Source: Oscillospiraceae bacterium | Lineage (GTDB): Bacteria; Bacillota; Clostridia; Oscillospirales; Oscillospiraceae | Assembly (NCBI GenBank): GCA_017552325.1 | Contig: JAFZQE010000049.1 | Span: 1-44,960 of the forward strand | Reading direction: 5' to 3' | DNA length: 44,960 nt | Shown: in pieces, positions 5,809-44,960 of the stretch | Layout of the letters: every line of letters begins with the position of its first letter | How positions within the stretch are numbered: the stretch's first letter is position 1 | Program-made: the position numbers and the translations under genes | Notes under the pieces: model-generated | Told to the model about the DNA's origin: nothing | The model's input: only the letters and a program-made list of their open reading frames with translations | The model's database searches: none

Positions 5809-5865
5809 AATTCCGGAAGCTTTTCCTGTGAAAAGCTTCCGGAATTGTATTTTTTTCTCTTTTTT
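5809..5865 (+). terminator. Terminator after the aconitase X operon
   Basis: A perfect 17-bp inverted repeat (5809-5825 and 5830-5846) with a CTGT loop is followed by long T-rich tracts. Confidence 0.9.
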
Positions 5866-5877
5866 GCAAACCAATTC

Positions 5878-5906
5878 TTGACATGTTTACATAAATATGG
5901 CAATAT
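5878..5906 (+). promoter_or_regulatory. Possible promoter of the surface adhesin gene
   Basis: TTGACA (5878-5883) is a perfect -35, but the best -10 at 17 bp (CAATAT, 5901-5906) is weak. A leader of about 95 bases would follow. The region is unusually AT-rich for this window. Confidence 0.35.
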
Positions 5907-6006
5907 TAGTTTGGTATTTTATGGGATTGCAGGAAATACCTGTGCGCCGTACCATAGATTACCTGGGAATAAGAGAACGCAAACAGCCGGAAAGGGGATC
6001 GGAATC

Positions 6007-9000: not shown

Positions 9001-11043
9001 GCCCACCAGGTGATCGTTACCGTCGAGAAGGACGAATCCGGCAGCAAGCTTGTCGCATCCATCTCCTACGACGAGGCGGAAAGCCTGACGGTGACCAACA
9101 GCTTTGAGTACCCCACGCCCACAGAGGCGACGCCGGAAGTCACCAAGGCGCTCGTCGGCAGAGACTGGAATGACGACGATACCTTCACCTTCCGCCTTGA
9201 CGCCGTGACCGAGGGCGCTCCCCTGCCCGAGACCGTCACCGCCGTCGCGACCAAGGAAGCCAAGACCGCCGTCTTCTGCAGCATCCGCTTTGACGCCGAG
9301 GGTACCTACGAATACACCATCACCGAGATCGACGGCGGCATCGAAGGCGTCACCTACGACATCAGCGCTCACAAGGTGACCGTTACCGTCACGAAGGACG
9401 AGACCGAATACAAGCTCGTCGCTTCCGTTTCCTACGACGGCGCCGAAAGCCTGACCGTGACCAACCGCTTTGAGAATCCCACGCCCGCAGAGGCGACGCC
9501 CGAAGTCACCAAGGCCATCTCCGGCAGAGACTGGAACGATGACGACAGCTTCACCTTCAAGCTCGAGGCCGTCACCGAGGGCGCTCCCCTGCCCGAAAAG
9601 GACACCGCCGTCGCGACCAAGGACGCTAAGACCGCCGTCTTCGGCAGCATCCGCTTTGACACGGTCGGCACCTACGAATACACCATCACCGAGCTGGACG
9701 GCGGCATCGAGGGCGTCACCTACGACATCAGCGCCCACAAGGTGACCGTCACCGTCACGAAGGACGAGACCGAATACAAGCTCGTCGCCGCGCTCTCCTA
9801 CGACGGCGCCGCAAGCCTCACGGTCACCAACAGCTATGAGGCCCCCGCGCCTGCGAAGGCCGCTCCGGAAGTGACCAAGGCGCTCGTCGGCAGAGACTGG
9901 AACGACGACGACAGCTTCACCTTCCGCCTTGACGCCGTCACCGAGGGCGCTCCCCTGCCCGCGTCCGTCACCGCCACCGCGACCAAGGAAGCCAAGACCG
10001 CCGTCTTCGGCAGCATCCGCTTTGACGCCGAGGGTACCTATGAATACACCATCACCGAGATCGGCGGCGGCATCGAGGGCGTCACCTACGATATCAGCGC
10101 CCACAAGGTGACCGTTACCGTCACGAAGGACGAGACCGAATACAAGCTCGTCGCCGCGCTTTCCTACGACGGCGCCGAAAGCCTGACGGTGACCAACGTC
10201 TTTGAAAATCCCACGCCCGCAGAGGCGACGCCGGAAGTCACCAAGGCCATCTCCGGCAGAGACTGGAACGATGACGACAGCTTCACCTTCAAGCTCGAGG
10301 CCGTCACGGAAGGCGCGCCCATGCCCGAAAAGGACACCGCCGTCGCGACCAAGGAGGCCAAGACCGCCGTCTTCGGCAGCATCCGCTTTGACACGGTCGG
10401 CACCTATGTCTACCGCATCACCGAGGTCGCCGGCTCCGCGCCCGCCATGACCTACGATCTCACGGCGCATCAGCTTGTCATCACGGTTTCCCGCTCGACC
10501 GACGGAAGCAACAAGCTCGTCGCCTCCCTGCGCTACGACGGCGCCGAGAGCCTCACGGTCACCAACACCTATCAGCCGGTCCCGACCAGCGTCGAATTCA
10601 AGGGAACCAAGACCATCTCCGGCAAAACGTCCTCCAAGCCCACCTTCTCCTTTACGCTGGTGGAAACGACGCCCGGCGCAACCTACAAGGAAACCGTGAA
10701 TTTGAAGGGCAGCGGCAGCTTCCAGTTCAAGACCATCACCTATGACAAGCCGGGGATCCACACCTATGAGATCACCGAGGTCAGGGGCTCCGCGTCCGGG
10801 TGGATCTATGATACGAAGAAGTACACGGTCACCGTAACCGTCACCGCCGACGAGAAAGGGAATCTGAGCGCCGCCGTCACCGGTCTGGACAAGGACGGCA
10901 CGGTCACCTTCAAGAACACCTACGATCCCTCCAAGCCGCCCACGGGCGACGATATGCACCCGCTTGCCTGGGGTCTTTCCGCACTGGCTTCCCTCACGGC
11001 GCTTGTTTATCTCAGCATGCGCCTGAAGAAACGGCACGGATAA
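6007..11043 (+). CDS. Cell-wall-anchored thioester adhesin with tandem isopeptide pilin-like domains
   Basis: The protein has 1678 residues. In order it has: a signal peptide (residues 1-35, cleaved near ASA-AE); an acidic Glu/Thr/Pro stretch; a thioester domain with Cys near residue 248 (TYCIDLR) and the VQQAIW motif near 323, the expected Cys-Gln crosslink pair; and a Cna-B/SpaA-like domain (GLRVYKVAEE). Seven tandem modules of about 120 residues follow, then one diverged module. Each carries the isopeptide trio: Lys in EVTK, Glu at the end of Y-x-Y-x-I-[TS]-E, and Asn in the L-T-V-T-N strand. The C-terminus has KPPTGD near residue 1643, a hydrophobic helix and a KKRHG tail, which is a sortase signal of non-canonical type. 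Thioester adhesins bind host or plant surface amines covalently. No sortase or pilin partner is nearby. ATG 6007 has AAAGGGG upstream. Confidence 0.9.
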   Translation: MVRNKLKSLLALCLVLCMALSLIVFTPRASAAETAVRNSDFEAATETGSEPEPVETEPEETEPEETEPEEAEETEEITDEDVLAVIELLKGIDSLQEMQNKRATITVKTVYAEAEEEHLAAQQQYKEYVDGMFEKRAAAKEAYEALSDEQKEQVQSDEDGAAGLAKLDPYDSLPNIFPMIGDFPLSITPSSNEYCYEVVRAYELSQNITADKDFPCTIALVDVSGDATSWTPNAPYQYGQSNYEITYCIDLRMPTTHGWHYKRVNLEDCDYYTASDAAHIRAIILTSYPYLTMDQMKSSLIAGGFNASYANALTRSDMIAAVQQAIWAYANRSNMDNITASTTYGGTAEVIDYPYPSRRLIKTMNDYRGELWDWYNTGFNYAARYPTIYADTAERVNALTQYLCNLPGVEAQDDQIIITEVSVARSDFIEGSDDTYSVDLRIFLNHGTAEGDISIVVTSSSVSETGQNQTSAKTIQVNNASVYETTITAKYGDTVTVVVDGTQTLPKGVYFYEPEGGFDKSQALVGLSEGETRVHAETSFVFDKDIDMGLRVYKVAEETKIPISDISFDVYRAEPEDGTTLSGKPTDEEIAAYATEENLVGTITTDSTGYGFLELTRGTFLVIERSSPKVKAPADPFYVTIPSTVEVVGEDGSVTVVHQDIVAVVVENIPFDTPDPAVATPEVTKAISGRDWNDDDSFTFKLEAVTEGAPMPEDPTAVATKASPLAVFGSISFKKVGTYEYRISELSGTIPGMSYDITAHQVVVTVKKATDGSNKLVATLSYDGASSLTVSNSFEPVLVAPEVTKEIEGRDWGDRDSFTFRLQPVTEGAPMPANETAVATRANPVAVFGSISYDKVGSYEYYITEDKGELPGMSYDIAYHQLMVTVSVAEDGSNRLVAELSYDGTGVLLITNRFTPAEATPEVTKLLDGRDWNDDDTFTFLLEAVTKGAPLPEDPTAVATKASPVAVFDTLSFSDVGVYVYRITEVDGGIEGVTYDISAHQVIVTVEKDESGSKLVASISYDEAESLTVTNSFEYPTPTEATPEVTKALVGRDWNDDDTFTFRLDAVTEGAPLPETVTAVATKEAKTAVFCSIRFDAEGTYEYTITEIDGGIEGVTYDISAHKVTVTVTKDETEYKLVASVSYDGAESLTVTNRFENPTPAEATPEVTKAISGRDWNDDDSFTFKLEAVTEGAPLPEKDTAVATKDAKTAVFGSIRFDTVGTYEYTITELDGGIEGVTYDISAHKVTVTVTKDETEYKLVAALSYDGAASLTVTNSYEAPAPAKAAPEVTKALVGRDWNDDDSFTFRLDAVTEGAPLPASVTATATKEAKTAVFGSIRFDAEGTYEYTITEIGGGIEGVTYDISAHKVTVTVTKDETEYKLVAALSYDGAESLTVTNVFENPTPAEATPEVTKAISGRDWNDDDSFTFKLEAVTEGAPMPEKDTAVATKEAKTAVFGSIRFDTVGTYVYRITEVAGSAPAMTYDLTAHQLVITVSRSTDGSNKLVASLRYDGAESLTVTNTYQPVPTSVEFKGTKTISGKTSSKPTFSFTLVETTPGATYKETVNLKGSGSFQFKTITYDKPGIHTYEITEVRGSASGWIYDTKKYTVTVTVTADEKGNLSAAVTGLDKDGTVTFKNTYDPSKPPTGDDMHPLAWGLSALASLTALVYLSMRLKKRHG
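8038..10570 (+). repeat. Seven tandem coding repeats (360-366 bp) in the adhesin
   Basis: The conserved Lys codon of each EVTK falls at 8059, 8419, 8779, 9145, 9511, 9877 and 10243, giving spacings of 360, 360, 366, 366, 366 and 366 bp. Copies four to seven are very similar at the DNA level, so recombination could change the copy number. Confidence 0.9.
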
Positions 11044-28645: not shown

Positions 28646-29188
28646 TCACCATTTCACGCTGCTGTTGATATTGAATAGAAATCTCGCCAGCTCTCGCGCG
28701 CTGCGCTCGTAGTTTGTCTTCATCCACTCGATGATGACGCTGAGGCTGCCGGCCATCATATAGGCGAGGATGAAGGCGTCGTTCTGCGGATCGTCGGTGA
28801 CCGGCAGAAACTGCAGCAGCTCTCTGGCGACCGCGTCCATCAGGGAAAAGCGGAAGCTGTCCCCTTCGTCGTGCATGAACAGGATGCGGAACTGCTTGTC
28901 GTTATCCTTGATATAGTTCAGAAAACGCTCGACGAAAACCGTGGGGTCGGAGAGGTCCGCCTCGCTGATCATGGCCACGGTCTGACGGCATACGGTATCC
29001 TTCACGTCGTTGAACACGCTGCGCTGGTCGGAGTAGTGCAGATAGAAGGTCGTGCGGTTCACGTCCGCCCGCTCGCAGAGCTCCTTGATCGTGATACGCT
29101 CAAAGGTCTTCTCCTCCATCAGCTCCACGAGGGCGGAGCGGATCAGGGCCTTTGTCATCTGGATGCGTCTGGACTCGGTTTTTTCCAT
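28646..29188 (-). CDS. TetR/AcrR-family regulator
   Basis: The protein has 180 residues. The DNA-binding domain is clear: KTFERITIKELCERADVNRT with TFYLHYSDQRSVF, the TetR recognition helix. The C-terminal domain is of the Firmicute TetR_C type seen in DhaS-like proteins (FLNYIKDNDKQFRILFM; the end has IIEWMKTNYERSARELARFL). It is divergent from the giant GH3 gene across 184 bases and is the likely local repressor of that operon. An inverted pair AAAACGTC (29213-29220) / GACGTTTT (29259-29266) lies in the shared region. The start at 29188 has GAGGAAACAAC upstream. The two TetR regulators of the window are only distantly similar outside the recognition helix. Confidence 0.9.
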   Translation of the reverse strand: MEKTESRRIQMTKALIRSALVELMEEKTFERITIKELCERADVNRTTFYLHYSDQRSVFNDVKDTVCRQTVAMISEADLSDPTVFVERFLNYIKDNDKQFRILFMHDEGDSFRFSLMDAVARELLQFLPVTDDPQNDAFILAYMMAGSLSVIIEWMKTNYERSARELARFLFNINSSVKW

Positions 29189-29372: not shown

Positions 29373-32300
29373 ATGAAAAAACGCAGCATCATTTTCCTTG
29401 CCATCCTTTTGATCCTCACGCTGGCGGTCAACATCGCCTGCGGTTCGCTCAAAACCATGATCACATCCTGGATGGGCGTCAATCTGAATCCCCTGATCAC
29501 CGGCTCCAAGGCCACCGAGAGCGCGGAGATCCTCAGCGTCGCGGACGCGACGGCGCAGAGTCTCGCTATGGCAGAACAACTGGAGGCGGAGGGCATCGTG
29601 CTGCTCCGCAACGAGAATAACGCGCTGCCTCTTGCAAGCGGCAGCAAGGTCAATCTCTTCGGCTACGGCTCGGTCGATCCGATCTACGGCGGCACGGGCA
29701 GCGGCTCCGGCGACACCTCCGCGAACGTGGACGTCGTCAAGGGCCTGCAGAACGCCGGCCTCGTCGTCAACGAAGAGCTCGTGAAGTTCTATCAGAGCTC
29801 CGGCGTCGAGCGCGCCAAGCAGGGCGGCTACACCGGCTCGAACTTCACCCCGGCCGAGGTGCCCGCCTCCGCCTACACCGACGCGGTGCTGCAGCAGGCG
29901 AAGGACTTCTCCGACACCGCGATCATCGTCCTCTCCCGCATCGGCGGCGAGGGCGGCGACCTGCCGCAGGACATGTTTGCTGCCGGCTACAGCCAGACCG
30001 ACGACGGGCGGCACTATCTGGAGCTGACGCAGGATGAGGAAGACCTGTTCGCGATCGTGAAGGCGCAGGGCTTCGCGAAGATCATCGTGCTCGTCAACGC
30101 CTCCAACGCGATGGAGCTCGGCTTCCTCGAGGACGGCGTCGACGCCTGCCTCTGGGTCGGCAGCCCCGGCGCGGTGGGCTTCAACGCGGTCGGCCGCGCG
30201 CTGACCGGCGAGGTCAATCCCTCCGGCCGCCTGGTCGACACCTACGCCTACGACCTCTCCACCGCCCCCGCCTACTGGAACGCGGGCGACTTTACTTACG
30301 GCAATCTCAGCACCCGCCACTACGTCGAGTACGCCGAGGGCATCTACGTCGGCTATCGCTACTATGAGACGGCGGCCGCGGACGGCTTCATCGACTACGA
30401 CAGCACCGTGCAGTACCCCTTCGGCTACGGCCTGAGCTACACGAGCTTTGAGCAGAGCATCGAGGGCTACACCGACGGCAACGGTACCATCGCCATGCAG
30501 GTGAAGGTCACGAACACCGGCGACGTTGCCGGCAAGGACGTGGTGCAGGTCTATTACACCGCCCCCTACACGCAGGGCGGTATCGAAAAGGCGCACGTCG
30601 TGCTCGCTGGCTTCGGCAAGACCGGCCTGCTTGAGCCCGGCGCCTCCGAGACCGTGACCGTCGCCTTCAAGGCGGAGGACATGGCCTCCTTCGACAGCTT
30701 CGGCGCGGGCTGCTATGTGCTCGAGGCCGGCGACTATGAGATCAAGCTGATGAAGAATGCGCATGAGCTGATCGACAGCCGCACCTACACCGTCGCGGAG
30801 ACCGTCGTCTTCGGCGAGGGCAACCCGCGCTCCACCGATCAGACCGCCGCCGTCGCGCATTTCGCCGACGTGCAGGACGGCCAGATCACGGTCTACGTCT
30901 CCCGCTCCGACTGGGCGGGCACGACCCCGTCCGCGCGCGTCGACGGCAAGACTGCCTCCGACGCGGTGGTGCTGGCCTTCTCCGAGAAGGCGCCCTATGA
31001 GGTCAATGACAGCGATCCCGCTATCGTCTACGCCGACAACGGCCTCACGCTGGAGGACATGGCCGGTCTTGACTGGGACGATCCCAAGTGGGAGCTGCTG
31101 CTGCAGCAGCTCAGCGATGAGGACATGGCGACCATGATCCTCAACGGCGGCTGGTCCACGCCCGCCGTCGCCTCCGTCGGCAAGCCCGCGACCTCCGACC
31201 TCGACGGCCCTGCCGGCATCAACTCCCTGGTCAGCTCCCTGCGCGGCGTCTCCTTCCCGAGCGAGGTCGTCATCGGTTCGACCTGGAATGAAGCGCTGGT
31301 CGAGGAATTCGGCCGCGTCTTCGGCGCGGAGGCGCTGGCCAACGGCGTCGTCGGCCTGTACGCGCCGGGCATGAACATCCACCGCACCCCCTTCTCCGGC
31401 CGCAACTTTGAGTATTATTCCGAGGACGGCCTCCTGTCCGGCAAGCTGGGCGCGGCCCAGGTGAAGGGCGCGGCCTCCCAGGGCGTCTATATGTACGCCA
31501 AGCACTTCGCACTGAACGATCAGGAATCCAACCGCCTGTCCCTCTCCGTCTGGTGCAGCGAGCAGGCGATGCGCGAGCTCTATCTCAAGCCCTTTGAGAT
31601 CACGGTCAAGGAGGGCAGGACCACCGCGATCATGTCCAGCTACTCCTACCTCGGCACCACCTGGGCCGGCGGCAGCAGGGCGCTGCTGAGCGACGTGCTC
31701 CGCGGCGAGTGGGGCTTCGTCGGCATGGTCGTCACCGACTCCGCGATGGCGAACACCTCCTGGATGGATCCGAACCTCGCGGTACGCGCGGGCAACGACA
31801 TGATGCTTTGCCTGATGGGCGCGAGCATCGACAGCTCGAACAACACGGCCCGCCAGGCGATGCGCGCGGCCTGCCACAACATCCTCTACACGCAGGCCAA
31901 CTCAGCCGCCGTGCAGGTCGAGGCCGACAACACCCCGTACTGGTACGGTCTGGTGGCGCTGCTCAACGCCATCGTCCTCAGCGTCGTGCTGCTGGTGATC
32001 CTGAAGAACACCGCCTTCAAACAGAAGAAGCTCGGCTGGTTCGGCGTGCTGACGGTCGTCGCGGTGCTCGCCCTGTCCGCGCTGCTCTGCTGGTTCTGCG
32101 CGATCAAGCCCGCAATGACAAAGAAGGCAGAGAGCGCCGCCGAGCCGACCGGCACGGTAGAGCCTGCCGAGGCGCAGGCCGAAGCCGAGCCGCAGCCCGA
32201 AGCCGAGCCGCAGCCCGCGGCCGCCGATACGGTCTCGCCCGAGGACGGCATGGAGCTTTACGACCTGGCCGACTTCTGGCTGGGCTGCCATGTGTATATC

Positions 32301-34751
32301 AACTCTGACAGCACCTTCTCCGTTGCCTATGACTTCGGCGGCGGGAACGACGGCATCGTCGAGGACAGCGGCAAATGGGAGCGCGTCTCCGACACCGAGC
32401 TTACGCTGAAGTCTGACTCCGGCGCTGAGATCCCCGTGACTCTCGCCGAGGGCAAGTGGAGCTGCGAGGTCACCGAGCCCAACACCTCCACCGTCTGCCA
32501 TCCCTCTGTTGAGGTAAATACCGCTCCCGCGGCCGCCGATGCGGTCTCGCCCGAGAACGGCATGGAGCTTTACGACCTGGCCGACTTCTGGCTGGGCTGC
32601 CATGTGTATATCAACTCTGACAATACGTTTACCGTTGCCTATGACTTCGGCGGAGGGAACGACGGTATCGAGATGGACAGCGGCTCCTGGGAGCGCGTGT
32701 CCGACACGGAGCTCGTGCTCAAATCCGACAGCGGCGCGGAGATCCCCGTGATCCTCGCGGATAACAAGTGGAGCTGCGAGGTCACCGAGCCCAACACCTC
32801 CACCGTCTGCCATCCCTCCGTCGAAGTGGGCGCCCCCCCAGCGGCCGCCGAAAGCGTCAGCCCCGAGGCCGGCATGGAGCTTTACGACCTGGCCGACTTC
32901 TGGCTGGGCTGCCATGTGTATATCAATTCCGACAGCACCTTCTCCGTGGCCTATGACTTCGGCGGCGGGAACGACGGCATCGAGATGGACAGCGGCTCCT
33001 GGGAGCGCGTGTCCGACACGGAGCTTGTCCTCAAATCCGTCAGCGGCGCAGAGATCCCCGTGATTCTGGCCGACGGCTCGTGGACCTGTGAGGTCACCGA
33101 GCCCAACACCGGCACCGTGTGCCATCCGACCATCGCCGGGGCCGCGGCGGAAGAACCCGCCCAGCCCGAGGCCGTCACCTACATGGTGGTCTTCACCGAC
33201 GCGGAGGGCACAGTGTACGACGTGATCGAGACCACGGACGCCTCTGCCGTGCCCGAGACGGCCATCCCCACCAAGGAAGGCTACCTCTTCGCCGGTTGGC
33301 AGACGCAGCCCGTCGTGACGAAGGAGGATCTGATCCTCGGCGTGTCCCCCTATGAAGTCCCCACCGGCGCCAGCAGTCTCTACGGCGGCGCGGGCACGAC
33401 CATCACCGATCTCGAGAGCCTGAGCGGCACGATGCTGCTCCTGTATGCCCGCTGGGTCGAGCCGACCGAAATCCACAATGCCGAGGAACTCAAGGGCATG
33501 GCGGAGGACCTCTGCGGCTGGTATGTGCTGGCTGAGGATATCGACCTGGTCGGCGAGAACTGGCAACCCGTCGGCATCTACTTCTCCAACTATGAGACGG
33601 TCAACGCCCCCTACTGGACCTACGCCTTCCGCGGCACCTTCGACGGCGCCGGCCACACGATCCGGAATCTTACGATCACGATGGACGGCTGCGCGGCCGA
33701 TCTCTCGGCCTTCGCGGGCGTGACTCCCGTCTGGCGCAACGACGGCGAGGCCCTCGGCAGCGAGGCTGCCTTCTTCGGCGCGACGGCCAAGGCGACCATT
33801 CAGAATGTGACCTTTGAAAACGCCGCCGTGACCGTGACTTCCGACAACGACGCGACGCCCTACGCGGCCGTCGTCAACGGCTTCGACCTCGCGAGCACGA
33901 TGAAGGATATCACGGTCAGCGGCGCCACGGTGGCCGTGACCGCCAACGACGCGAATATGGACGCCCGACAGAGCACCTGGGCCGCCGCCTCCGCCCTCAC
34001 CGCGGGCGGCTGGAGCACCGTGATCGAAAACTGCGCGGTCGTCGATGCGAGCGTCACGCTCAACGGCACCCTGACGAAGTCCCACGGCGCGGAATACTAC
34101 GTCGGCGGCATGCTCGGCGAGGGCTATGCCTTTATGGACGGCAACACGGCGACGGCTGCGATCTCCGTCAATATTCAGGACAAGAGCGAAGCGGAGACCG
34201 ACGCCGAGCTGATCGTCAACGTCGGCGGCATGGGCGGCACGAACACCACCCAGACGAACGGCTGCTTCGACACGACGATCGACGTCAGAGTGAGCAAGCC
34301 CGTCGGCGCGGCCACCGTTTCGATCGGCGGTCTGACCGGTTCCCAGCGCTACCAGGTGGCCGAGGACAACAGCATCAAGGCGGCCATCACGACCGATCTC
34401 ACGCTGGACGAGGCCAACAGCAAGGTCTACGTCGGCCAGGTCATCGGCAGCACCAACGTGCCCTACTGCATCGTGCAGCTGATCTTTGCCGACCCCGGTT
34501 CCGTGGCTTACTCCGGCTGCCGGAACAACACCTGTGACGTTACGCTCAACGGCGAGCCCGTCACCGCCGCGAAGGGTCAGACCCTCACGGCGGGCGGCGA
34601 GAAGCTCCTGTACATCGCCAACGGCGACCTGACCGACGAAGAGAGCGGCGAGTCCTACGCGAGCAACATCGACGCGGTCATCGCCGAGTACGGCTCCGCC
34701 GTCCCGTCCTCCTTCCTGCAGCAGGCCGTCATCGTTCTGGTAGACGAATAA
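29373..34751 (+). CDS. Giant membrane-bound GH3 glycosidase with reversed domain order and repeat/beta-helix tail
   Basis: The protein has 1792 residues. An N-terminal membrane anchor (about residues 4-25) is followed by the GH3 C-type alpha/beta domain (GIVLLRNENNALPL near 73), an Fn3-like domain (to about 560), and only then the TIM-barrel domain (DLDGPAGIN near 607; NIHRTPFSGRNFEYYSEDG; KHFALND; nucleophile Asp789 in MVVTDSAM). This is the swapped order known from some Ruminococcus and Butyrivibrio GH3 enzymes. Two more membrane segments lie at about 857-878 and 890-911, with a positively charged turn (KNTAFKQKK). Three repeats of 104 residues, an InlB/Flg_new-like repeat and a long GLUG-like beta-helix follow. 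The predicted topology puts both the enzyme and the tail outside the cell. ATG 29373 has GAGAGG upstream. The whole frame is intact. Confidence 0.88.
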   Translation: MKKRSIIFLAILLILTLAVNIACGSLKTMITSWMGVNLNPLITGSKATESAEILSVADATAQSLAMAEQLEAEGIVLLRNENNALPLASGSKVNLFGYGSVDPIYGGTGSGSGDTSANVDVVKGLQNAGLVVNEELVKFYQSSGVERAKQGGYTGSNFTPAEVPASAYTDAVLQQAKDFSDTAIIVLSRIGGEGGDLPQDMFAAGYSQTDDGRHYLELTQDEEDLFAIVKAQGFAKIIVLVNASNAMELGFLEDGVDACLWVGSPGAVGFNAVGRALTGEVNPSGRLVDTYAYDLSTAPAYWNAGDFTYGNLSTRHYVEYAEGIYVGYRYYETAAADGFIDYDSTVQYPFGYGLSYTSFEQSIEGYTDGNGTIAMQVKVTNTGDVAGKDVVQVYYTAPYTQGGIEKAHVVLAGFGKTGLLEPGASETVTVAFKAEDMASFDSFGAGCYVLEAGDYEIKLMKNAHELIDSRTYTVAETVVFGEGNPRSTDQTAAVAHFADVQDGQITVYVSRSDWAGTTPSARVDGKTASDAVVLAFSEKAPYEVNDSDPAIVYADNGLTLEDMAGLDWDDPKWELLLQQLSDEDMATMILNGGWSTPAVASVGKPATSDLDGPAGINSLVSSLRGVSFPSEVVIGSTWNEALVEEFGRVFGAEALANGVVGLYAPGMNIHRTPFSGRNFEYYSEDGLLSGKLGAAQVKGAASQGVYMYAKHFALNDQESNRLSLSVWCSEQAMRELYLKPFEITVKEGRTTAIMSSYSYLGTTWAGGSRALLSDVLRGEWGFVGMVVTDSAMANTSWMDPNLAVRAGNDMMLCLMGASIDSSNNTARQAMRAACHNILYTQANSAAVQVEADNTPYWYGLVALLNAIVLSVVLLVILKNTAFKQKKLGWFGVLTVVAVLALSALLCWFCAIKPAMTKKAESAAEPTGTVEPAEAQAEAEPQPEAEPQPAAADTVSPEDGMELYDLADFWLGCHVYINSDSTFSVAYDFGGGNDGIVEDSGKWERVSDTELTLKSDSGAEIPVTLAEGKWSCEVTEPNTSTVCHPSVEVNTAPAAADAVSPENGMELYDLADFWLGCHVYINSDNTFTVAYDFGGGNDGIEMDSGSWERVSDTELVLKSDSGAEIPVILADNKWSCEVTEPNTSTVCHPSVEVGAPPAAAESVSPEAGMELYDLADFWLGCHVYINSDSTFSVAYDFGGGNDGIEMDSGSWERVSDTELVLKSVSGAEIPVILADGSWTCEVTEPNTGTVCHPTIAGAAAEEPAQPEAVTYMVVFTDAEGTVYDVIETTDASAVPETAIPTKEGYLFAGWQTQPVVTKEDLILGVSPYEVPTGASSLYGGAGTTITDLESLSGTMLLLYARWVEPTEIHNAEELKGMAEDLCGWYVLAEDIDLVGENWQPVGIYFSNYETVNAPYWTYAFRGTFDGAGHTIRNLTITMDGCAADLSAFAGVTPVWRNDGEALGSEAAFFGATAKATIQNVTFENAAVTVTSDNDATPYAAVVNGFDLASTMKDITVSGATVAVTANDANMDARQSTWAAASALTAGGWSTVIENCAVVDASVTLNGTLTKSHGAEYYVGGMLGEGYAFMDGNTATAAISVNIQDKSEAETDAELIVNVGGMGGTNTTQTNGCFDTTIDVRVSKPVGAATVSIGGLTGSQRYQVAEDNSIKAAITTDLTLDEANSKVYVGQVIGSTNVPYCIVQLIFADPGSVAYSGCRNNTCDVTLNGEPVTAAKGQTLTAGGEKLLYIANGDLTDEESGESYASNIDAVIAEYGSAVPSSFLQQAVIVLVDE
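32222..33145 (+). repeat. Three tandem 312-bp coding repeats in the giant GH3
   Basis: Units begin near 32222, 32534 and 32846. Each encodes about 104 residues, with GMELYDLADFWLGCHVYINS, YDFGGGNDGI and WSCEVTEPNT as fixed points. The DNA is nearly identical over long stretches, so copy number may vary. I recognise no family. Each unit has two conserved cysteines that could pair, plus a third near VCHP. Confidence 0.88.
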
Positions 34752-34789: not shown

Positions 34790-36919
34790 ATGGACATTGA
34801 AAAACTGATGAGCCGGCTGACCGTGGAAGAGAAAGCGGCCCTGGTCTCCGGCACGGATTTCATGTATACCAATCCGATCCCGCGGCTGGGCGTTCCCTCG
34901 CTGTGCATGTCGGACGGCCCCCACGGCCTGCGCAAGCAGCTCGAGGGCGGCGACAACGGCGTATCCCGCTCGGAGCCGGCCACGGCCTTTCCCACGGCGG
35001 CCGCCCTCGCCTCGGGCTGGAACCCGGACAACGCCCGGAAAATGGGCGAGGCCATCGCGGAGGAATGCCGGCACTACGGCGTCCACGTGCTGCTCGGCCC
35101 CGGCGTGAACATCAAGCGCAACCCGCTCTGCGGGCGAAACTTCGAGTACTTCAGCGAAGACCCGCTGCTCGCCGGCGTCATGGGCGCGGCCGAGGTCGAG
35201 GGTTTGCAGTCCAGGGGCGTGGGCGCCTCGCTCAAGCACTTCGCGCTCAACAACAGCGAGAATTACCGCTTCATGGGCAATTCCGCCGCCTCCGAGAAGA
35301 CCATGCGGGAGCTTTACCTCAAGCCCTTCGAGTATGTGGTGAAGAAGGCGAAGCCCGCCACCGTTATGTGCGCCTACAACCAGATCAACGGCGTTTTCTG
35401 CAGCGAGAACAAGTGGCTGCTGACCGAGGTGCTCCGCAAGGACTGGGGCTTCGACGGCCTGGTGATGACCGACTGGGGCGCGATCAAGGACCGTGTCGCC
35501 GCCCTGAAGGCGGGGCTGGATCTGGAGATGCCCGGCGACGCTGCGATCTGCCGGAAATGGATCCTGGACGGGATCCAGGACGGTTCGCTGCCGATGGAGG
35601 ATCTGGACAAGGCTGCGCGGAACGTCCTGCGGCTCGCGGACGCCTGGGTGCGACCCGCGGACGGGACGCCGATCGACTTTGACGCGCACCACGCGCTTGC
35701 GGCCGAGCTCGCCGAGGACTGCGCGGTGCTGATGAAAAACGACGGCGCGCTGCCGCTGAAGTCCGGCGCGAAGCTGCATATCGCGGGCGAGCTGTTCGAG
35801 AACATGCGCTATCAGGGAGCGGGAAGCTCGATGATCCATCCCGCCCTCCTCACCACAGCGAAGGACGCCTTCGCGGCGCGGGGAATCGCTTCCGTCCCCG
35901 TGGAGGACTGCGATACGATCCTCGTTTTTGCCGGGCTGACCGACGAGTACGAGAGCGAGGGCGGCGACCGGGAGAACATGAATCTGCCCGGCCGCCAGCT
36001 CCGGGAGATCGACGCGCTGTGCGAAAGCGGAAAGCCCGTCGTGGTCGTGCTCTTCGGCGGCTCACCGGTCGAGCTGCCCTTTGCCGACAAGGTCGATGCC
36101 ATCCTCAACATGTACCTGCCCGGACAGAACGGCGGCACGGCCGTCGCCCGGCTGCTCTTCGGCGAGGCGAACCCCTCCGGCAGGCTGGCCGAGACCTGGC
36201 CGCTGCGCTATGAGGACGTGCCAAGCGCCGCGAGCTTCGGCAAAGGGATCAACGAGATCTACGCCGAAGGCACGGAGGTCGGATATCGCTATTACAACAA
36301 ACACAAGATCCCCGTCCGCTACCCCTTCGGGCACGGACTGAGCTATACCACGTTCGAAAAAACCGACTGGGTCAAAGACGGCGACGCCTACACCCAGACG
36401 ATCACCAACACCGGCGGGCGCTTCGGCGCCGAGGTGGCGATGCTGTTTCTGGACGGCGAGCTGGCGGGCTTTCAAAAGGTCCGGCTGCAGCCGGGCGAGA
36501 GCGCGACCGTGACGATCACGCCCGAGCCGAAGGACGGCACAGAGTATTCCGACGAGATGACAGTCCCGTCCGAGCCGCCGCGCTTCCCGATCACGCTGGA
36601 ATCCCGCTTCTCCGACCTGACGCAGAGCTTCATGGGCCGCATCCTGCACGCCGCCGTCCTCTCTGTGGCGGCGAAGCAGGAAAAGGAGGCGGCGAAGCTG
36701 CCGGACGGCCCCGACAGGGACAACAAGCGCAAGGGCGCGCTGTTCCTGCGGCGCATTCTGGAGAGCAACTCCCTGCGCAGCATGTCCATGTGCGCCGGGA
36801 AATCCTTCCCCTATAACTTTGCCCTCGGCTTTATGGAGCTTGCCAACGGGCATATGCTCCGCGGCGCGAAAGCCTTCCTGACGCCGATCAAGGTCCCCAA
36901 ACTTCCGAAGGAGGAATAA
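34790..36919 (+). CDS. GH3 family beta-glycosidase (cytosolic, normal domain order)
   Basis: The protein has 709 residues and no signal peptide. The TIM barrel has [39 protein letters not shown] and the nucleophile Asp228 (LVMTDWGA). The alpha/beta sandwich has [15 protein letters not shown] and [15 protein letters not shown], typical of beta-glucosidase-type GH3, where the acid/base lies in this domain. A short Fn3-like region follows, then about 120 residues of helical, Met-rich sequence ([17 protein letters not shown] onward) that is not part of classical GH3. AAAGGGG lies nine bases before the ATG. The gene starts 38 bases after the giant GH3 and ends four bases before the symporter. Beta-glucosidase or beta-xylosidase activity is likely. 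Confidence 0.9.
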
Positions 36920-36923
36920 GAAC

Positions 36924-38471
36924 ATGAGACTTCCCGCGAGTTTGATCCGATCCCCGGAGGTCACCAAAAAGGAAAAGTGGCTGGGCTATCTGCTCGGCCC
37001 TGCCGGCGCGCTGCTGCTGAACGCGGTGCTCGCGACCTATCTGAACGTCTACTACACGGACGTGCTGAATCTGACCCCGCTGTGGGGCGGCGCGTTTCTG
37101 ACGGTCTTCCCGATCGTCTCCAAGATCATCGACGCCATCACCAACATCATCATGGGTCAGGTCATCGACCGCACGAAGACCAAAGAAGGCAAGGCCCGAC
37201 CCTGGCTCTTCCTGTCGGCCTTCCTGGTGCCGGTCACGGGTATCCTGCTCTTCACCGTGCCCGAGTCGAGCGACACGGTCAAGGCCCTGTGGGTCATGAT
37301 CTCCTATAACCTCTTCTACTCCTTCGCCTACACGATCTTCAACATGAGCCACAACCTGATGGTGCCGCTGTCCACCCGCGACGGCACGGCCCGCGGCGGG
37401 CTCTCGGTCTTCAACCAGATCACCACGATCATGATGTCCGGCATTCTGGTCGCGCTCGTGTTCCCGATGGTCATCATGCCGGCCATCGGCGTGGACAAGT
37501 CCAAGTGGATCACGCTGATGAGCGTGCTGTCCATCATCGCCCTGCCGCTGACCCTGCTGGAATACTTCTTCACCAAGGAACGCGTCACGGAGGAGAAGGG
37601 CGAGGACGCGGATCACGGGCTGGACTTCGGGGCCCAGCTCAAGCTCCTGTTTACGGACAAGTACATGGTGCTGATGTATGTGTACTTCTTCGTGTACACC
37701 GTCGGCACGACGCTGAAAAACCTCGGCCTCGTCTATTACTGCAACTATGTCCTCGGCACCTACAACGACGGCCATACCCAGACGCTTGTTTCGGTGATCG
37801 GCGGCATCCCGATGGGCATCGGCATCTTCGCCGTATGGCCGCTGGCCAAGCGCTTCGGCAAGCGGAACGTGACGATGGTCGGCTTCATCCTCTACGCCGT
37901 CGGCTCGCTGATCTGCTGGCTGTTCCCGCACACGATGTGGATCGTGCTGACCGGGCAGTTCATCAAAAACATCGGCGGTCTGCCCTGCGCCTATGTGTTC
38001 ATGGCGCTCTTTGCCGACTGCCTCGACCATCTGGAATGGAAGTCCAACATCCGTCTGGACGGCGCGGCCATGTCCATCTACAACATCATCGCCGTGGCGA
38101 TGGTCGGCATCATGACGGGCGTTTTCAACTGGATGCTGGCCAAGGCCGGCTATCTTGCGCCGGTCGAGTTCCGGGAGGTTGCGGAAAAGGCCGGGCAGCT
38201 CCCATGGTCGGAGGCTTCTTCCTGGCTGACCGGCAGCGGCCTTACGCCGCAGGTCGCTCTGGATTTGCTGGAAGCAAAGGACGGCGTTTATACCGTCGCT
38301 TTGGCGCAGCCGCAAAGTGTGACCTGGGTCATTTCCTTCGCCTTTGTGGGAATAGAGGTCTTCACCGGTATCGCGCTGATCGCTATCCTCTTCTTCCTGA
38401 ACGTGGAGAAAAAGCTCCCCGAGGAGCAGGCCGAGATCCAGGCCCGCCGCGAGGCAAAGAACGCGGATTAA
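36924..38471 (+). CDS. GPH-family glycoside:cation symporter
   Basis: The protein has 515 residues and about twelve membrane segments. [33 protein letters not shown] is split here only to note its parts: the segment I-D-A-I-T-N (cation-site acidic residue) and [13 protein letters not shown] are the GPH loop signature. [19 protein letters not shown] is also typical of the family's second half. It differs clearly from the other GPH protein in the window, so the two operons probably import different substrates. It begins four bases after the GH3 gene and ends 16 bases before the second GH78 gene. No PTS-IIA-like regulatory domain follows the last membrane segment. Confidence 0.9.
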
Positions 38472-38487: not shown

Positions 38488-41031
38488 ATGAAAGCGATCC
38501 GACTGAGAACGGAATACCTGAAAAACCCGCTGGGCATTGATATCCGCCAGCCCCGCCTGATGTGGAACTGCGAGGGCGGCGTTACGCAGACCGCATACCA
38601 GATCGTCACAGAGAGCTGGGACAGCGGCAGGGTGGAGAGCGCCTCCATGCAGGCGGTCTGGCCGAAGGAGCTGCACAGCCGCGAGCGCGTGGACTGGAAT
38701 CTCCGCCTCTGGGACGAGAACGGCGAACCGGGCGAGTGGAGCGAATCCTTTTTTGAGATGGGTCTGCTCTCCCCTGCCGACTGGCGCGCCAAATGGATCA
38801 CCGGCGATTACACACCGAACAAAAAAGAGCGCTGTCCGGTGGACTGCTTCCGCAAAGCCTTCGCGCTGAACAAACCCGTCGCCGCGGCGCGGCTCTATAT
38901 CACCGCCTGCGGCCTGTACGAGGCGAGCCTGGGCGGGAAAAAGGTCGGCGAGTTCTGCTTCGCCCCGGGCTACACCGACTACCGCAAGCGGGTGCAGTAC
39001 CAGACCTGCGACGTGACCGAGCTGCTGCGCGAGGGCGAAAACGAGCTGACGGTAGAGCTGGCCGACGGCTGGTACCGCGGCTCCTGCGGCGCCTGGGGCA
39101 TCAAAAACCAGTACGGAACGGAGACGAAGCTGCTGGCCCAGCTGGAGATCCGCTATGCCGACGGCACGGCTGAGCGCATCGTCAGCGACAGCAGCTGGGA
39201 CTGGTCGAACGACGGCTCGATCCGCTTCGCCGACAACAAGGACGGCGAGATCGTCGACGCCCGGCGCACGCCGTCCTGGTCCGGCAAGGCGAAGAAGACG
39301 AAGCATCCCATTGTCCCGAGCGCGTCGAACAACGTGCCGGTCACGGAGCACGAGCGCTTTCATCCCGTCATCACCACAGCGCCCAACGGGAAAAAGCTGC
39401 TGGACTTCGGGCAGAACATCGCGGGCTACGTGGCCTTCCGCGTCAGCGCCCGCGCCGGGCAGAGGATGCTCTGGCGTTTCGGCGAGATGCTGGACGACGA
39501 GGGCAATCTGACGCTGAAAAACATCCAGCTCTCGACGAAGAAAAAGACCACGCCGCTGCAGCAGATCGACTATACCTGCCGCGAGGGCCTGAACGAGTAC
39601 AAGACCCGCTTTGCCGTCTTCGGCTTCCGCTACGCGGAGGTGGAGGGCGACGTGGAGCTGCGTCCGGAAGACGTGGAATCCGTTGCCGTCTACTCCGACT
39701 TAGAACAGACCGGCTTCTTTGAAAGCTCCAACGAGCTGCTCAACCGCTTTTTCGCCGCCACCGTCTGGTCGGCCAAGAGTAATCATCTGGACATCCCCAC
39801 CGACTGCCCGACCCGCGAGCGCCACGGCTGGACCGGCGACGCACAGATTTTCTTTGAGACCGCGGGCTATCTCTTCGACTTCGCGGCCTTTTCCCGGAAG
39901 TGGCTGAACGACGTCTATGACTGGCAACGGAAAAACGGCCGCCTGCCGCATATCGTGCCGGACGGGGGCGCGGACTTCTATATGTGGACCATGAACGGCT
40001 CGGTCGGCTGGTCGGACGTGGGCGTCCTGATGCCTTACCGCTTCCGGAAGCTTTTCGGCGACGAGAGCATCCTGCGCGAGCACTACGAGGGCATGGCAAA
40101 ATACGCCCGTTTCATGGAACGGCGCTGCGGCAAAAACGCGCCGATCTTCGGCGAGCGCTTCAAGCTCTCCCCGGAGGCGAAGAAGTATCTGGTCAACGCC
40201 GGGCAGAGCTACGGCGAATGGGCGGAGCCCGCCGAGGTCTGCGCCTTCAAGTGGACCGATTTCGCCGCGCCGCATCCGGAGGTCTCCACGGCCTATACCG
40301 CTTATGTCCTCTCGGTCATGGCGGAGATCGCGGAAAAGCTGGGGCACGAGAAGGACGCGGAAGAGTTCAAAGCATACAGCGAGGGCTGCCGCAGGGCCTA
40401 TCAGGAGCTGGTATCCGGCGGCAAATACGGCCTCGATACCGACCGGCAGGCGCAGCTCGTCCGGCCGCTGGCCCTGGGCCTGCTGAACGAAGAACAGACG
40501 GAATATGCCAAAAAGCGCCTGCTGGAAGCGCTGGAGCACTACGGCTGGCGGCTGGGCACCGGCTTCCTCTCCACGCCGCTGATTCTCGGCGTGCTGGAGG
40601 AGATCGACGTGGAGGCGGCCTACCGGCTGCTGGAAAACGAGGAGCTGCCCGGCTGGCTGTCCATGCCGAAGGCCGGGGCCACCACGATCTGGGAGGCCTG
40701 GGAGGGCCCGAACTCCAACCAGGGCGGCATCGGCTCGCTCAACCACTACTCCAAGGGCGCGGTCTGCGAGTGGCTGTTCAAGTCCATGTGCGGCATCCGC
40801 GTGACGGGCGAGAACCGCTTCACCGTCGCGCCGCTGCCCGGCGGGCAGTTCACCCACGCCGAGGCGAGCTACAACAGCGTCTACGGCGAGATCAAGAGCA
40901 GCTGGAAGCGCGAGGGCGGAAAAACCGTGTATTCGATCCGCATCCCGGCCAACTGCACGGCCGAGATCGCCCTGCCCGGCGGCACGCGCGAAACCGTCTC
41001 CGCGGGGGAATACGTGTTCACGGAGGAATAA
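38488..41031 (+). CDS. GH78 alpha-L-rhamnosidase (second copy, with N-terminal Fn3-like domain)
   Basis: The protein has 847 residues and no signal peptide. An N-terminal Fn3-like domain (LRTEYLKNPLGIDIRQPRLM, WSESFFEMGLL) is present, as in most Firmicute GH78 enzymes. Beta-sandwich domains follow (WRAKWITGDY, LYITACGLYEASLGGKKVGE, LADGWYRGSCG), then the catalytic barrel with Glu444 (DCPTRERHGWTGD) and Glu736 (TTIWEAWEG), and a C-terminal beta domain. Both catalytic motifs are intact. It shares the core motifs with the 753-residue GH78 of the first operon but differs in domain content and sequence, so the two may prefer different linkages or aglycones. GGGAGGG lies before the ATG. It is the last gene of its operon. 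Confidence 0.92.
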   Translation: MKAIRLRTEYLKNPLGIDIRQPRLMWNCEGGVTQTAYQIVTESWDSGRVESASMQAVWPKELHSRERVDWNLRLWDENGEPGEWSESFFEMGLLSPADWRAKWITGDYTPNKKERCPVDCFRKAFALNKPVAAARLYITACGLYEASLGGKKVGEFCFAPGYTDYRKRVQYQTCDVTELLREGENELTVELADGWYRGSCGAWGIKNQYGTETKLLAQLEIRYADGTAERIVSDSSWDWSNDGSIRFADNKDGEIVDARRTPSWSGKAKKTKHPIVPSASNNVPVTEHERFHPVITTAPNGKKLLDFGQNIAGYVAFRVSARAGQRMLWRFGEMLDDEGNLTLKNIQLSTKKKTTPLQQIDYTCREGLNEYKTRFAVFGFRYAEVEGDVELRPEDVESVAVYSDLEQTGFFESSNELLNRFFAATVWSAKSNHLDIPTDCPTRERHGWTGDAQIFFETAGYLFDFAAFSRKWLNDVYDWQRKNGRLPHIVPDGGADFYMWTMNGSVGWSDVGVLMPYRFRKLFGDESILREHYEGMAKYARFMERRCGKNAPIFGERFKLSPEAKKYLVNAGQSYGEWAEPAEVCAFKWTDFAAPHPEVSTAYTAYVLSVMAEIAEKLGHEKDAEEFKAYSEGCRRAYQELVSGGKYGLDTDRQAQLVRPLALGLLNEEQTEYAKKRLLEALEHYGWRLGTGFLSTPLILGVLEEIDVEAAYRLLENEELPGWLSMPKAGATTIWEAWEGPNSNQGGIGSLNHYSKGAVCEWLFKSMCGIRVTGENRFTVAPLPGGQFTHAEASYNSVYGEIKSSWKREGGKTVYSIRIPANCTAEIALPGGTRETVSAGEYVFTEE

Positions 41032-42184: not shown

Positions 42185-43477
42185 ATGCGCAGATTTCTTG
42201 CCATCGACATCGGCGCGTCCAGCGGACGGCACATCGTCGGCTGGTCGGAGGGCGGCGAGCTCAGGACCGAAGAGCTCTACCGCTTTCCCAACGGCGTGAC
42301 CGAGCTGAACGGACATCTGACCTGGGACATCGACGCGCTGCTGGGCCATGTCAAGGCCGGCATTGCGATCGCGAGAGAAAAATACCCGGAGATCGAAAGC
42401 CTGTCCGTCGACACCTGGGGCGTGGATTACGTTTTGATGAAGGGTGACGAAGCGGTCTACCCCTGCTTCGCCTATCGGGACGGCCGCACCGAGGCCGTTA
42501 TCCCTGCGGTGCATGAGAAGATGGCTTTTTCCGAGCTCTATCGCCGCACGGGCATCCAGTTCCAGCCCTTCAACACGATCTATCAGCTCTATGAGGACAA
42601 GCTCGCAGGGCGGCTCGAGGGCGTGACGGACTTTCTGATGATCCCGGAGTATCTGATGTACAAGCTTTGCGGCGTCAAGTCCCACGAGTACACCAACGCC
42701 ACCACCGGCGGCATGGTCAGTGCCGAGACAGGGGAGTTCGACCCCGTTATCATCGAAGCGCTGGGCCTCCCGAAGCAGCTGTTCTGCAAATTGCAGCAGC
42801 CCGGAACGGTCATCGGCGAGTACGAGGGGATCAAGGTCGTCCTCTGCGCCACGCATGACACCGGCAGCGCGGTCGAGGGCATCCCGATGGAGGGCGACGC
42901 GCCCTACATCTCCTCCGGCACCTGGTCGCTGCTGGGCGTCAAGACCAAAAAACCCATCACCAACGCGGCGTCGGAGCTCGCCAACTGGTCGAACGAGGGC
43001 GGCGTGGACTACAACCGCTATCAGAAAAACATCATGGGCATGTGGCTCGTCAACCGCCTGCGCGACGAGCTCTGCCCGGGCAAGCCCTTCGGCGAGATCG
43101 TCGCCGAAGCGGAGAAAAGCCGCTTCGAGGAGACCGTGGACGCCAACGCGCAGATCTTCCTCGCCCCCGAGAGCATGAAGGCGGCCTTTGACGCGGCGCT
43201 CGCGATGCAGCCCCAGAGCGTGGGCGACTACTTCCGCTGCGCCTACCGCAGCCTCGCGCTGAGCTACCGGGACGCCTTGAACGAGTTGGAGCGCAACACC
43301 GGCAGGCACTATGACAGCATCTGCATCGTGGGCGGCGGCGCTAAGAACGCCTTTCTCAACCGCCTCACCGAAGAAGCCACAGGCAAAAAAGTGATCGCCC
43401 TGCCCATTGAGGCTACGGCGATCGGAAATCTGAAAATTCAAATCCAATGTCATTCTGAGCGCAGCGAAGAATCTTAA
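42185..43477 (+). CDS. rhaB: Rhamnulokinase (FGGY family), C-terminus replaced by a repeat
   Basis: The protein has 430 residues. The ATP-grasp start FLAIDIGASSGRHIVG, SVDTWGVDYVLM, the substrate-region RDGRTEAVIPAVHEKM, ATHDTGSAVEG, ISSGTWSLLGV and the adenosine motif IVGGGAKNAFLNRLTEEATG identify rhamnulokinase, which phosphorylates L-rhamnulose. Typical RhaB proteins have about 470-490 residues (from memory). This one follows the family to IEATAIGNL near residue 414. It then reads into a dispersed palindromic repeat that encodes the last nine residues (CHSERSEES), so about 40-60 C-terminal residues are missing. The lost part is helical and packs against the nucleotide-binding domain. The enzyme may be impaired or a pseudogene. 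ATG 42185 follows AAGGGGGA. Confidence 0.85.
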   Translation: MRRFLAIDIGASSGRHIVGWSEGGELRTEELYRFPNGVTELNGHLTWDIDALLGHVKAGIAIAREKYPEIESLSVDTWGVDYVLMKGDEAVYPCFAYRDGRTEAVIPAVHEKMAFSELYRRTGIQFQPFNTIYQLYEDKLAGRLEGVTDFLMIPEYLMYKLCGVKSHEYTNATTGGMVSAETGEFDPVIIEALGLPKQLFCKLQQPGTVIGEYEGIKVVLCATHDTGSAVEGIPMEGDAPYISSGTWSLLGVKTKKPITNAASELANWSNEGGVDYNRYQKNIMGMWLVNRLRDELCPGKPFGEIVAEAEKSRFEETVDANAQIFLAPESMKAAFDAALAMQPQSVGDYFRCAYRSLALSYRDALNELERNTGRHYDSICIVGGGAKNAFLNRLTEEATGKKVIALPIEATAIGNLKIQIQCHSERSEES

Positions 43478-43612: not shown

Positions 43613-44960
43613 ATGTTAGTCAACACCAAAGCACGCATCGGCGTTTTCTCCATCGCGCTGGGCGCGTATCTGCCCCAGTTTCCGAGTCTCGTTCCCGAGT
43701 TCGAGGCCCAGTACGCGGACTTCAAAAAGCGCATCCCCGATTCCGTCGAGCTCATCGACGGCGGCATCGTCACCACGAAGGAAAAGGCGGCGGCGGCGGG
43801 CGACAGTTTCCGTGCTGCGGATGTCGACCTTGTGATTCTCCAGCTGCTGACCTACGCGACGAGCTACAACATGCTGCCCGCCGTGCGCGATCTGGACGTG
43901 CCGGTGGTGCTGGTCAATCTCCAGAAGAAGCTGGCCCCGGACTACGCCAACACCGACACGGCCACCTGGCTGGGCGAGCTCTACGCCTGCGGCGCCATGG
44001 GCGAGATGGTGGCAGACCTCGAGCGCGCGGGCAAGCGCCACGCGGTCATCACCGGCGTCGTCGAGGGCGGCGATCCGGAGGCGGACCGCGAGATCGCCGA
44101 CTGGTGCCGCGCCGCGCAGGTGCGCCGCCGCTTCCGCGACACGAACCTCGCGCAGATCGGCCGCCCCTATCCCGGCATGATGGACCTCTACATCGACGAG
44201 ACCAATCTCTACCACCGGATGTTCCTCTACACCAAGCAGTTCGACTGGGAAAAGATGTGGGCCATCGCCGACGATATCACCGACGAGGACACGATCCGCG
44301 CCAAGGCGCAGGACATCCTCGACACCTTCGACATTGAGGGCGGCGGCACGGTCGAAAAGGTCTGGGATATGGCCAGGTACGTTGTGGCCTTCGAGCGCTG
44401 GGTCAGGGACGAGCAGCTCGGCTTTGTCGCGAGCCACTACGACGGCTTCGCGCAGGGCGTGGCGGGCAAGCTCGACTCCATGCTGATCCCTGCCTTCTCC
44501 ATGCTGATCAAGCAGGGCACCGCCTGCGCCGTCGAGGGCGACATCAAGGTCGCGATGGCGATGTCGATCCTCAAGACCATCTCCGGCATGGGGCAGCTCT
44601 CCGAGATGTACTCCATCGACTTTAACGAGGACATCTGCATCATCGGCCACAGCGGCTCCGGCGACGCGGACATCTCCAAGGCGAAGAAGCCGACGATGAA
44701 GATCGTCCCCGTCTTCCACGGCAAGACCGGCGGCGGCTATCTGACGCAGTTCTACCCCGCGGAGGGCCCCGTGACCTACCTGGGCATTACGCAGGACCGT
44801 GACGGGCACTTCAAGTTTGTCGCGGCAGAGGGCGTGAACGAGCCCGGCCCCATCTTCACTTTCGGCGACACCAACATGCGCACCCGCTTCACCTGCGGCG
44901 CGCGGGACTTCTGCAACCGCTGGAGCGAGGCCGGCCCCACCCACCACATGGCGGCGGCCA
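43613..44960 (+). CDS. L-arabinose/L-fucose isomerase-family protein (3' partial)
   Basis: The window holds 449 codons without a stop. The protein has the arabinose-isomerase-like layout: an N-terminal Rossmann-like domain (RIGVFSIALGAYLPQFPSL, VVLVNLQKKLAPDY), a middle domain (ASHYDGFAQGVAGKLDSML) and the metal-binding part ACAVEGDIKVAMAMSIL (first Glu), IDFNEDICIIGHSGSGDADI (second acidic residue and His), then SEAGPTHHM (last His). Such enzymes interconvert aldoses and ketoses with Mn2+. Beside a rhamnulokinase it may act as the L-rhamnose isomerase of this organism, although classical RhaA belongs to another family. GGGAGG lies eight bases before ATG 43613. It would follow the kinase in one operon, but the repeats between them may affect transcription. 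Confidence 0.85.
   Translation, partial: MLVNTKARIGVFSIALGAYLPQFPSLVPEFEAQYADFKKRIPDSVELIDGGIVTTKEKAAAAGDSFRAADVDLVILQLLTYATSYNMLPAVRDLDVPVVLVNLQKKLAPDYANTDTATWLGELYACGAMGEMVADLERAGKRHAVITGVVEGGDPEADREIADWCRAAQVRRRFRDTNLAQIGRPYPGMMDLYIDETNLYHRMFLYTKQFDWEKMWAIADDITDEDTIRAKAQDILDTFDIEGGGTVEKVWDMARYVVAFERWVRDEQLGFVASHYDGFAQGVAGKLDSMLIPAFSMLIKQGTACAVEGDIKVAMAMSILKTISGMGQLSEMYSIDFNEDICIIGHSGSGDADISKAKKPTMKIVPVFHGKTGGGYLTQFYPAEGPVTYLGITQDRDGHFKFVAAEGVNEPGPIFTFGDTNMRTRFTCGARDFCNRWSEAGPTHHMAAA

Follow-up and report, generated by a model that had tools for sequence, protein, structure and literature searches.

The window (the whole 44,960-nucleotide stretch of DNA analyzed here) encodes a 1792-residue protein that apparently represents a real and so far undescribed family of arm-bearing enzymes within the permuted glycoside hydrolase 3 (GH3) proteins. 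Its gene (29373..34751, + strand) is a single ORF in which an N-terminal anchor, a GH3_C domain, an Fn3-like domain, a GH3_N domain, a transmembrane hairpin, three 104-residue repeats, an InlB-like segment and a GLUG-like tail follow one another. On balance, we favor the reading that the product would act as a surface exo-glycosidase with a permuted GH3 core and an adjustable outward arm, encoded in a plant-rhamnoside locus. The ORF listing begins this frame at a GTG at 29052. We place the start at the ATG at 29373 because this codon is closely preceded by AGAGG and because the orthologue in genome G063 has MKKRS at the equivalent position.

A permuted GH3 core between membrane segments

GH3_C (alpha/beta sandwich; residues 75-328, 29595..30356, PF01915, 96.7 bits), the Fn3-like domain (residues 389-459, 30537..30749, PF14310, 43.9 bits) and the GH3_N barrel (residues 607-813, 31191..31811, PF00933, 99.3 bits), all on the + strand, score above their Pfam cut-offs and lie in reversed order, which upholds the swap of catalytic domains proposed in an earlier note on this DNA. 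Compared over the core only, residues 71-826 align as one continuous stretch with 5wug, which shares the permuted order and which we take to be the P. barengoltzii enzyme. Residues 66-828 align in the same uninterrupted way with 5k6l, one of the structures (PDB 5k6l-5k6o) of the permuted rumen GH3 GlyA1 (PMC5104943). With the active-site residues given in the available part of that paper as reference, Glu193 aligns with GlyA1 Glu143 as the acid/base, Asp789 is the nucleophile by alignment, and Asp611, Arg677, Lys710, His711, Arg721 and Tyr757 match the -1 subsite; residue letters were checked in the sequence, and their placement against GlyA1 was counted by hand from the alignment. Judged from this alignment, the core is a permuted GH3 of the GlyA1 type with its catalytic residues kept.

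One position departs from GlyA1, in which, according to the part of the paper at hand, Trp710 follows the nucleophile and stacks on the -1 sugar, the glycon (PMC5104943). The window protein has Ser790 there, and Ser is found in all 11 readable members. The surrounding motif VVTDSAM is kept in the same 11 (window included) and also in G667 and G564. Because Ser replaces the stacking Trp, the specificity of GlyA1 is not transferable and activity could be weak. The Trp is a feature of GlyA1 that is not stated as defining for the permuted GH3 subfamily; among the GlyA1-type characters, the domain order, the nucleophile Asp and the acid/base Glu are present and the Trp is absent. The best NCBIfam model, exo-alpha-1,6-L-arabinopyranosidase, reached 281.8 bits against a cut-off of 1300.

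Three hydrophobic segments, called by KD over 19 residues, bear out the anchor and hairpin described earlier. The anchor occupies residues 6-24 (29388..29444, +, KD 2.73) after MKKRS; the hairpin consists of TM2 at residues 859-877 (31947..32003, +, KD 2.92) and TM3 at residues 893-911 (32049..32105, +, KD 2.56), joined by the positive loop KNTAFKQKKLGW. The charged flanks (MKKR ahead of TM1, KNTAFKQKK between the two hairpin segments) agree with an inferred topology in which the turn of the hairpin is cytoplasmic and core and tail both lie outside; the flank after TM3, outside in this arrangement, also has three Lys. Anchor and hairpin are present in 8 of the 11 readable members. The remaining three (L078, L080 and L081), one clade in a 37-row tree, have no hairpin and only a weaker N-terminal segment that resembles a signal peptide by eye. 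Their sequences make them look secreted, in which case core and arm would still share one side, and their existence shows that a membrane tether is dispensable. The description of the enzyme as surface-tethered therefore fits the majority of the family, but not these three members.

Swapped GH3 order as such has been published, for GlyA1 (PMC5104943) and for BrGH3A (PMC11233000), as the available parts of both papers state. GlyA1 shares with the window protein the GH3_C - FnIII - GH3_N order, the catalytic residues and the possession of an extra C-terminal domain, but its own C-terminal part is a 120-residue segment predicted to be CBM6/35-like, and the available text describes no counterpart of the repeats, the InlB-like segment or the tail (PMC5104943). 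The word "transmembrane" is absent from the text of that paper, whereas the window protein has three hydrophobic segments. According to the sections at hand, no binding of the GlyA1 C-terminal domain to xylan, cellulose or barley glucan was observed (data not shown by the authors), and cell attachment is proposed as one of its roles (PMC5104943). BrGH3A, although permuted, is described in the accessible part of its report as an 814-aa protein with no signal peptide and a proposed intracellular action (PMC11233000). In L118 of genome G058, a permuted GH3 core is likewise followed by a long C-terminal part, there with CBM6 and FIVAR modules, and G058 has no match to the repeat or to the window arm. 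That genome encodes two giant GH3s, L117 (2219 aa) and L118 (1748 aa), the former of which contains FIVAR as well as two GH3_N and two GH3_C stretches. For the complete anchor-hairpin-repeat-tail layout, no description was found in the titles and abstract openings of the mostly open-access papers searched, in line with the earlier note, which knew of no described protein with the full layout; the swapped order alone is not new.

The arm: repeats, InlB-like segment and tail

An Ala/Glu/Pro-rich linker with an 18-nt tandem repeat (32118..32213, +) leads from TM3 into three 104-residue repeats with a period of 312 nt (32214..32525, 32526..32837 and 32838..33149, all +). Repeats 2 and 3 are 88% and 84% identical to the first over 300 nt. 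Our repeat alignment (A3) has 34 rows, namely 31 tandem repeats, two nested copies and one domain borne by an SDF symporter. Trp18, Cys21, His22, Trp51, Trp78, Cys80, Cys91 and His92, numbered as in window repeat 2, are invariant in all 31 tandem repeats; the divergent repeats of G667 and G564, outside A3, lack part of this set by eye. Cys21 and Cys91 occur together in the 31 repeats, in the four repeats of G667 and G564 (by eye) and in the nested copy of L076. A disulfide between the two may form, but the nested copy of L082 keeps Cys21 and has no Cys91.

The repeats had been assigned to no known family. They do weakly resemble NlpE_N/lipocalin-like domains, mostly below cut-off. NlpE_N (PF04170) was their most frequent Pfam match, found for 29 of the 34 rows at E<=0.1. 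Scored singly, 10 of 10 repeats stayed below the cut-off of 22 bits (best 21.4, in L082; none in L078), and window repeats 1, 2 and 3 gave 16.9 bits, 14.3 bits and no match at E<=0.1. Together the three window repeats scored 34.7 bits, and the best of the 34 rows reached an E value of 8.7e-05, which should exceed the cut-off. In a single hhalign comparison, the repeat and E. coli NlpE gave a probability of 29.8% (E 0.00056), versus 0.2% and 0.9% for two unrelated partners. The alignment covers the GTWxR-xxxxLxL core of the repeat; NlpE has a CxxC motif, whereas the repeats have none and are arranged in tandem. A distant NlpE/lipocalin-like fold may be taken as a lead, not a result.

Other searches with the repeat returned little. 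DUF1366 (PF07104, cut-off 23) scored 24.2 bits summed over the three repeats with no stretch passing alone, and it was absent among the Pfam matches of single repeats. PF04170 had no match at E<=0.001 in the window's own genome, repeat 1 had none at E<=0.001 in phage records, and no kinship of the repeat with the tail or the GH3 core was found. PDB sequences gave no convincing match to the repeats (best E 0.026) or to the tail. At E<=0.001, the repeat domain was detected in 3 of 149 relatives' genomes, 4 of 102 genomes of the genus, 4 of 400 of the family, 2 of 394 of the order and 1 of 398 of the phylum, the last being the window's own; the samples overlap, each includes the own genome, and two of the genus hits (G006 and G489) are an SDF sodium:dicarboxylate symporter. 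This symporter (L084:9917-11551 and L093:1423-2967) carries one repeat-like domain following the first of its hydrophobic segments. Across a sample of 51 genomes of the genus, 23 SDF matches (80-85% identity) begin only at query residue 126-132, so these proteins seem to be without the domain, as far as local matches tell. A functional parallel to the repeats may be the DUF1735 proteins of Bacteroidota PULs, which the available text presents as proposed membrane-bound spacers with carbohydrate modules, but these have a reported Ig-like fold, are N-terminal lipoproteins and belong to another phylum (PMC11216935).

The InlB/Flg_new-like segment (residues 1270-1316, 33180..33320, +) matched PF09479 at 24.6-26.0 bits, and all nine tails match this family at E<=0.1. 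The InlB-like repeat reported earlier is thus present, but its best score falls narrowly short of the 27 bits needed for membership. It is followed by a tail of about 430 residues (1364-1792; 33462..34748, +), which is probably beta-rich, has partial matches to other ORFs and, as the earlier note had it, lies in one continuous ORF with the core. No stretch of the tail passes any Pfam family, GLUG included; the GLUG motif (PF07581) matched none of nine tails at E<=0.1, no carbohydrate-binding family in Pfam matched, and none of the known wall-binding or sorting families was detected. DUF6278 (PF19794, cut-off 26.4) gave 27.4 bits with a 907-aa C-terminal piece and 23.7 with the whole protein, without a passing stretch. 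Among plasmid records, the sole one found was a Virgibacillus "GLUG motif-containing protein" with 26.9% identity over 43% of the tail. A G188 protein matched the tail at 68.7 bits, and the best Glug stretch of that protein is located elsewhere in it. Helical periodicity peaked at z 2.2, versus 2.3 for a control stretch of the GH3 core. What remains of the GLUG-like beta-helix first proposed is a weak similarity to GLUG-motif proteins; the periodicity test was negative and the Pfam motif unmatched. A foreign origin of the tail was rejected, as GC (0.642-0.670) and GC3 (0.85-0.91) are uniform over the whole gene.

Recurrence, origin and variants of the family

A scan of genome contigs with a repeat profile (A2) found 13 loci, 12 of which, from 11 MAGs, carry the arm-bearing GH3 family, the 13th being the SDF symporter. 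A continuous core-to-tail ORF is present in six other MAGs, with anchor and hairpin in L073, L074, L075 and L076 and without the hairpin in L078 and L080. Five further MAGs show parts of the gene only. The G063 gene is split over two contigs (L072 and L083) whose ends overlap exactly by 71 nt, the L077 copy holds a run of N, L079 retains repeats and tail only, and L081 and L082 run off their contigs. The G063 copy, 90.4% identical to the window in the core and 76.2% in the tail, has its reading frame broken between repeats 1 and 2 (L066:360-760), through either an assembly error or slippage in a GC-rich spacer. Over the 12 family genomes (window included), the tail is whole in 10 and partial in L082, and the L081 contig ends before it. 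For 5 of the 11 MAGs a ruminant gut site is stated, namely the rumen of roe deer (two MAGs) or water buffalo (one) and the abomasum or reticulum of goat (one each); three others have RUG codes, which presumably denote rumen, and three have no stated host.

We built a tree of 37 permuted cores, leaving out L077 (masked), L079 and L083 (no core) and L005 (a fragment of the window). With support of 100/100, the 10 rows that bear a tail group together, and their sister is a set of six tail-less rows, both together being supported by 95/91. One own-genome paralogue (contig C51) is among the six sister rows, and another (C76) lies further out. In this tree, the sequences place the tail family at a single origin. 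In the sister rows, two hydrophobic segments are N-terminal and one is C-terminal; in armed members with the hairpin the numbers are one and two, which amounts to one more crossing after the core. G667 and G564, from another genus of the family, have the anchor, the hairpin and two divergent repeats; the G667 ORF, with a core 67.5% identical, ends by a stop after the two repeats, and that of G564 stops at the contig edge.

Repeat numbers, which come from draft MAGs and may be affected by assembly, are two in L073 and L075, three in the window, L074 and L080, and four in L078. In L076 and L082, which have four and three, one further copy sits inside the InlB-like segment. Both of these nested copies are circularly permuted: when rotated, each gave one hit (103.0 and 100.5 bits), versus two pieces each when unrotated (best 75.6 and 81.8 bits). 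Mean repeat similarity is 0.79 within proteins (30 pairs) and 0.67 between proteins (435 pairs), and the between-protein mean is not reached by most pairs from L080 and from L081 or by the pairs involving the first L078 repeat. These values suggest at most a partial turnover of the array.

Locus context and possible roles of the arm

The gene is flanked by a divergent TetR-like regulator (28646..29188, -; named by reading the sequence, with no family call), which has relatives beside the gene in G063 (77.8%), G667 (29.7%) and G564 (28.2%). Downstream, all on the + strand, are a GH3 of ordinary domain order (34790..36919), a GPH-type sugar symporter (MFS_2; 36924..38471; 203.6 bits with the gph model, below the cut-off of 231), a GH78 alpha-L-rhamnosidase (38488..41031) and a rhamnulokinase-like FGGY kinase (42185..43477; TIGR02627, 408.6 bits, below the cut-off of 528). 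In all, the surroundings comprise two GH78, two GH43, a GH2, a GH3, a GH1-type gene, two GPH-type symporters, the rhamnulokinase-like kinase and a probable sugar isomerase. The use of plant rhamnosides is the best-supported context that these genes suggest, because relatives of the symporter (75-81% identical) and of the GH78 (60-73% identical) recur in the fetched stretches of 9 of the 11 MAGs; in the other two, L081 and L082, the contigs end too soon. Neither relative was present in the 12-kb stretch of G667 or the 8-kb stretch of G564. It is a guess that flavonoid or saponin glycosides serve as substrates.

Other features of the window include a 449-aa ORF at 43613-44959, open at the window end, which matches no Pfam family, is 93% identical in G063, where it also lies beside the rhamnulokinase-like gene, and weakly matches L-arabinose and sulfoquinovose isomerases, making it a probable sugar isomerase. 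At 5845-11040, a 1732-aa ORF combines a thioester domain, eight FctA/Spy0128-like isopeptide stretches and a hydrophobic C-terminal segment; a simple pattern search found no LPXTG-type motif in it. Toward the left end, 4046-5332 and 1760-2950 encode aconitase X and an uncharacterized nucleotidyltransferase (NTP_transf_5). The RNA elements at gathering threshold are two tRNAs only.

For the favored surface exo-glycosidase, the domain order, catalytic residues, anchor and hairpin, repeats, InlB-like piece, tail, single origin and locus partners are all grounded in the sequence. Both ends of the core would lie at the membrane, so cutting would take place next to the GPH-type symporter, and the hairpin would return the chain outward, placing the arm on the outer side. 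The repeats could then bridge the cell wall as a spacer of adjustable length, in support of which we count the presence of two versus three repeats in proteins that are 96-97% identical (L073 and L074). The tail would touch an external target, which is most likely plant material. The enzyme, GH78 and the other glycosidases would jointly strip rhamnose-containing plant glycosides, and the released sugars would then be imported and phosphorylated.

It is possible, though we hold it rather unlikely, that the arm is instead a retention or assembly module that binds the cell's own wall or tail-like surface proteins and not substrate. In the three members without the hairpin, nothing but the arm could hold the protein on the cell, and other ORFs of the order contain tail-like pieces, in some cases with a start that resembles a signal peptide by eye. 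The GlyA1 authors' suggestion of cell attachment, for a different C-terminal domain in the part of the paper at hand, points the same way (PMC5104943). However, the search for wall-binding or sorting families in the tail found no known one, and with three membrane segments in 8 of the 11 readable members extra retention seems redundant.

More doubtful is the reading of the repeat as a hitherto undescribed mobile ectodomain found in gut Clostridia, namely a small lipocalin/NlpE-like module for ligand or metal binding that might be an antenna for the aglycone or phenolic part of plant rhamnosides. The Cys3His2 set is invariant in the GH3 arrays, and the domain occurs arrayed, circularly permuted, placed within the InlB-like segment and carried inside an SDF transporter; such an antenna would work beside the membrane-held enzyme and its symporter. 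We regard as quite improbable that the core is a GH3-derived surface sensor or binder that is no longer mainly an enzyme. The change from the glycon-stacking Trp to Ser throughout the readable members would agree with this, but the other active-site residues aligned with the published GlyA1 positions at hand, both catalytic ones included, are kept, and core dN/dS is 0.060/0.476 = 0.13 in one pair (window versus G063).

Still less credible is that the protein is simply a normal permuted GH3 whose C-terminal extension is neutral in evolution. In favor of this, the genus has many permuted relatives that lack a tail, permuted GH3s elsewhere have other tails, for example CBM6/FIVAR, and the repeat-only relative in G667 has no tail. 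Against this, the tails of eight other members are 63-76% identical to that of the window with many invariant columns, the tail is seen whole in 10 of the 12 family genomes, and it is under purifying selection in the one pair compared (window and G063; dN/dS 0.157/0.550 = 0.29). Finally, an assembly or sequencing artefact joining two genes, which could be read into the split and frame-broken G063 gene and the run of N in L077, has a negligible chance of being correct, given the exact 71-nt overlap of the G063 contig ends, the uniform GC and GC3 along the gene and the core-to-tail ORFs of six other MAGs, which exclude the earlier note's concern that the tail might be a separate gene.

If the product is the surface exo-glycosidase that we favor, the family adds to the permuted GH3s a membrane-held, predicted exo-glycosidase whose arm varies in length between near-identical proteins, and it ties an arm-bearing GH3 to a conserved rhamnosidase-symporter neighborhood in gut Clostridia. 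The natural series of members with no tail, with repeats only, with the full arm, with a nested repeat and with the hairpin lost allows direct tests of what each part does, and bears on how such a cell may position exo-enzymes beside their importer.
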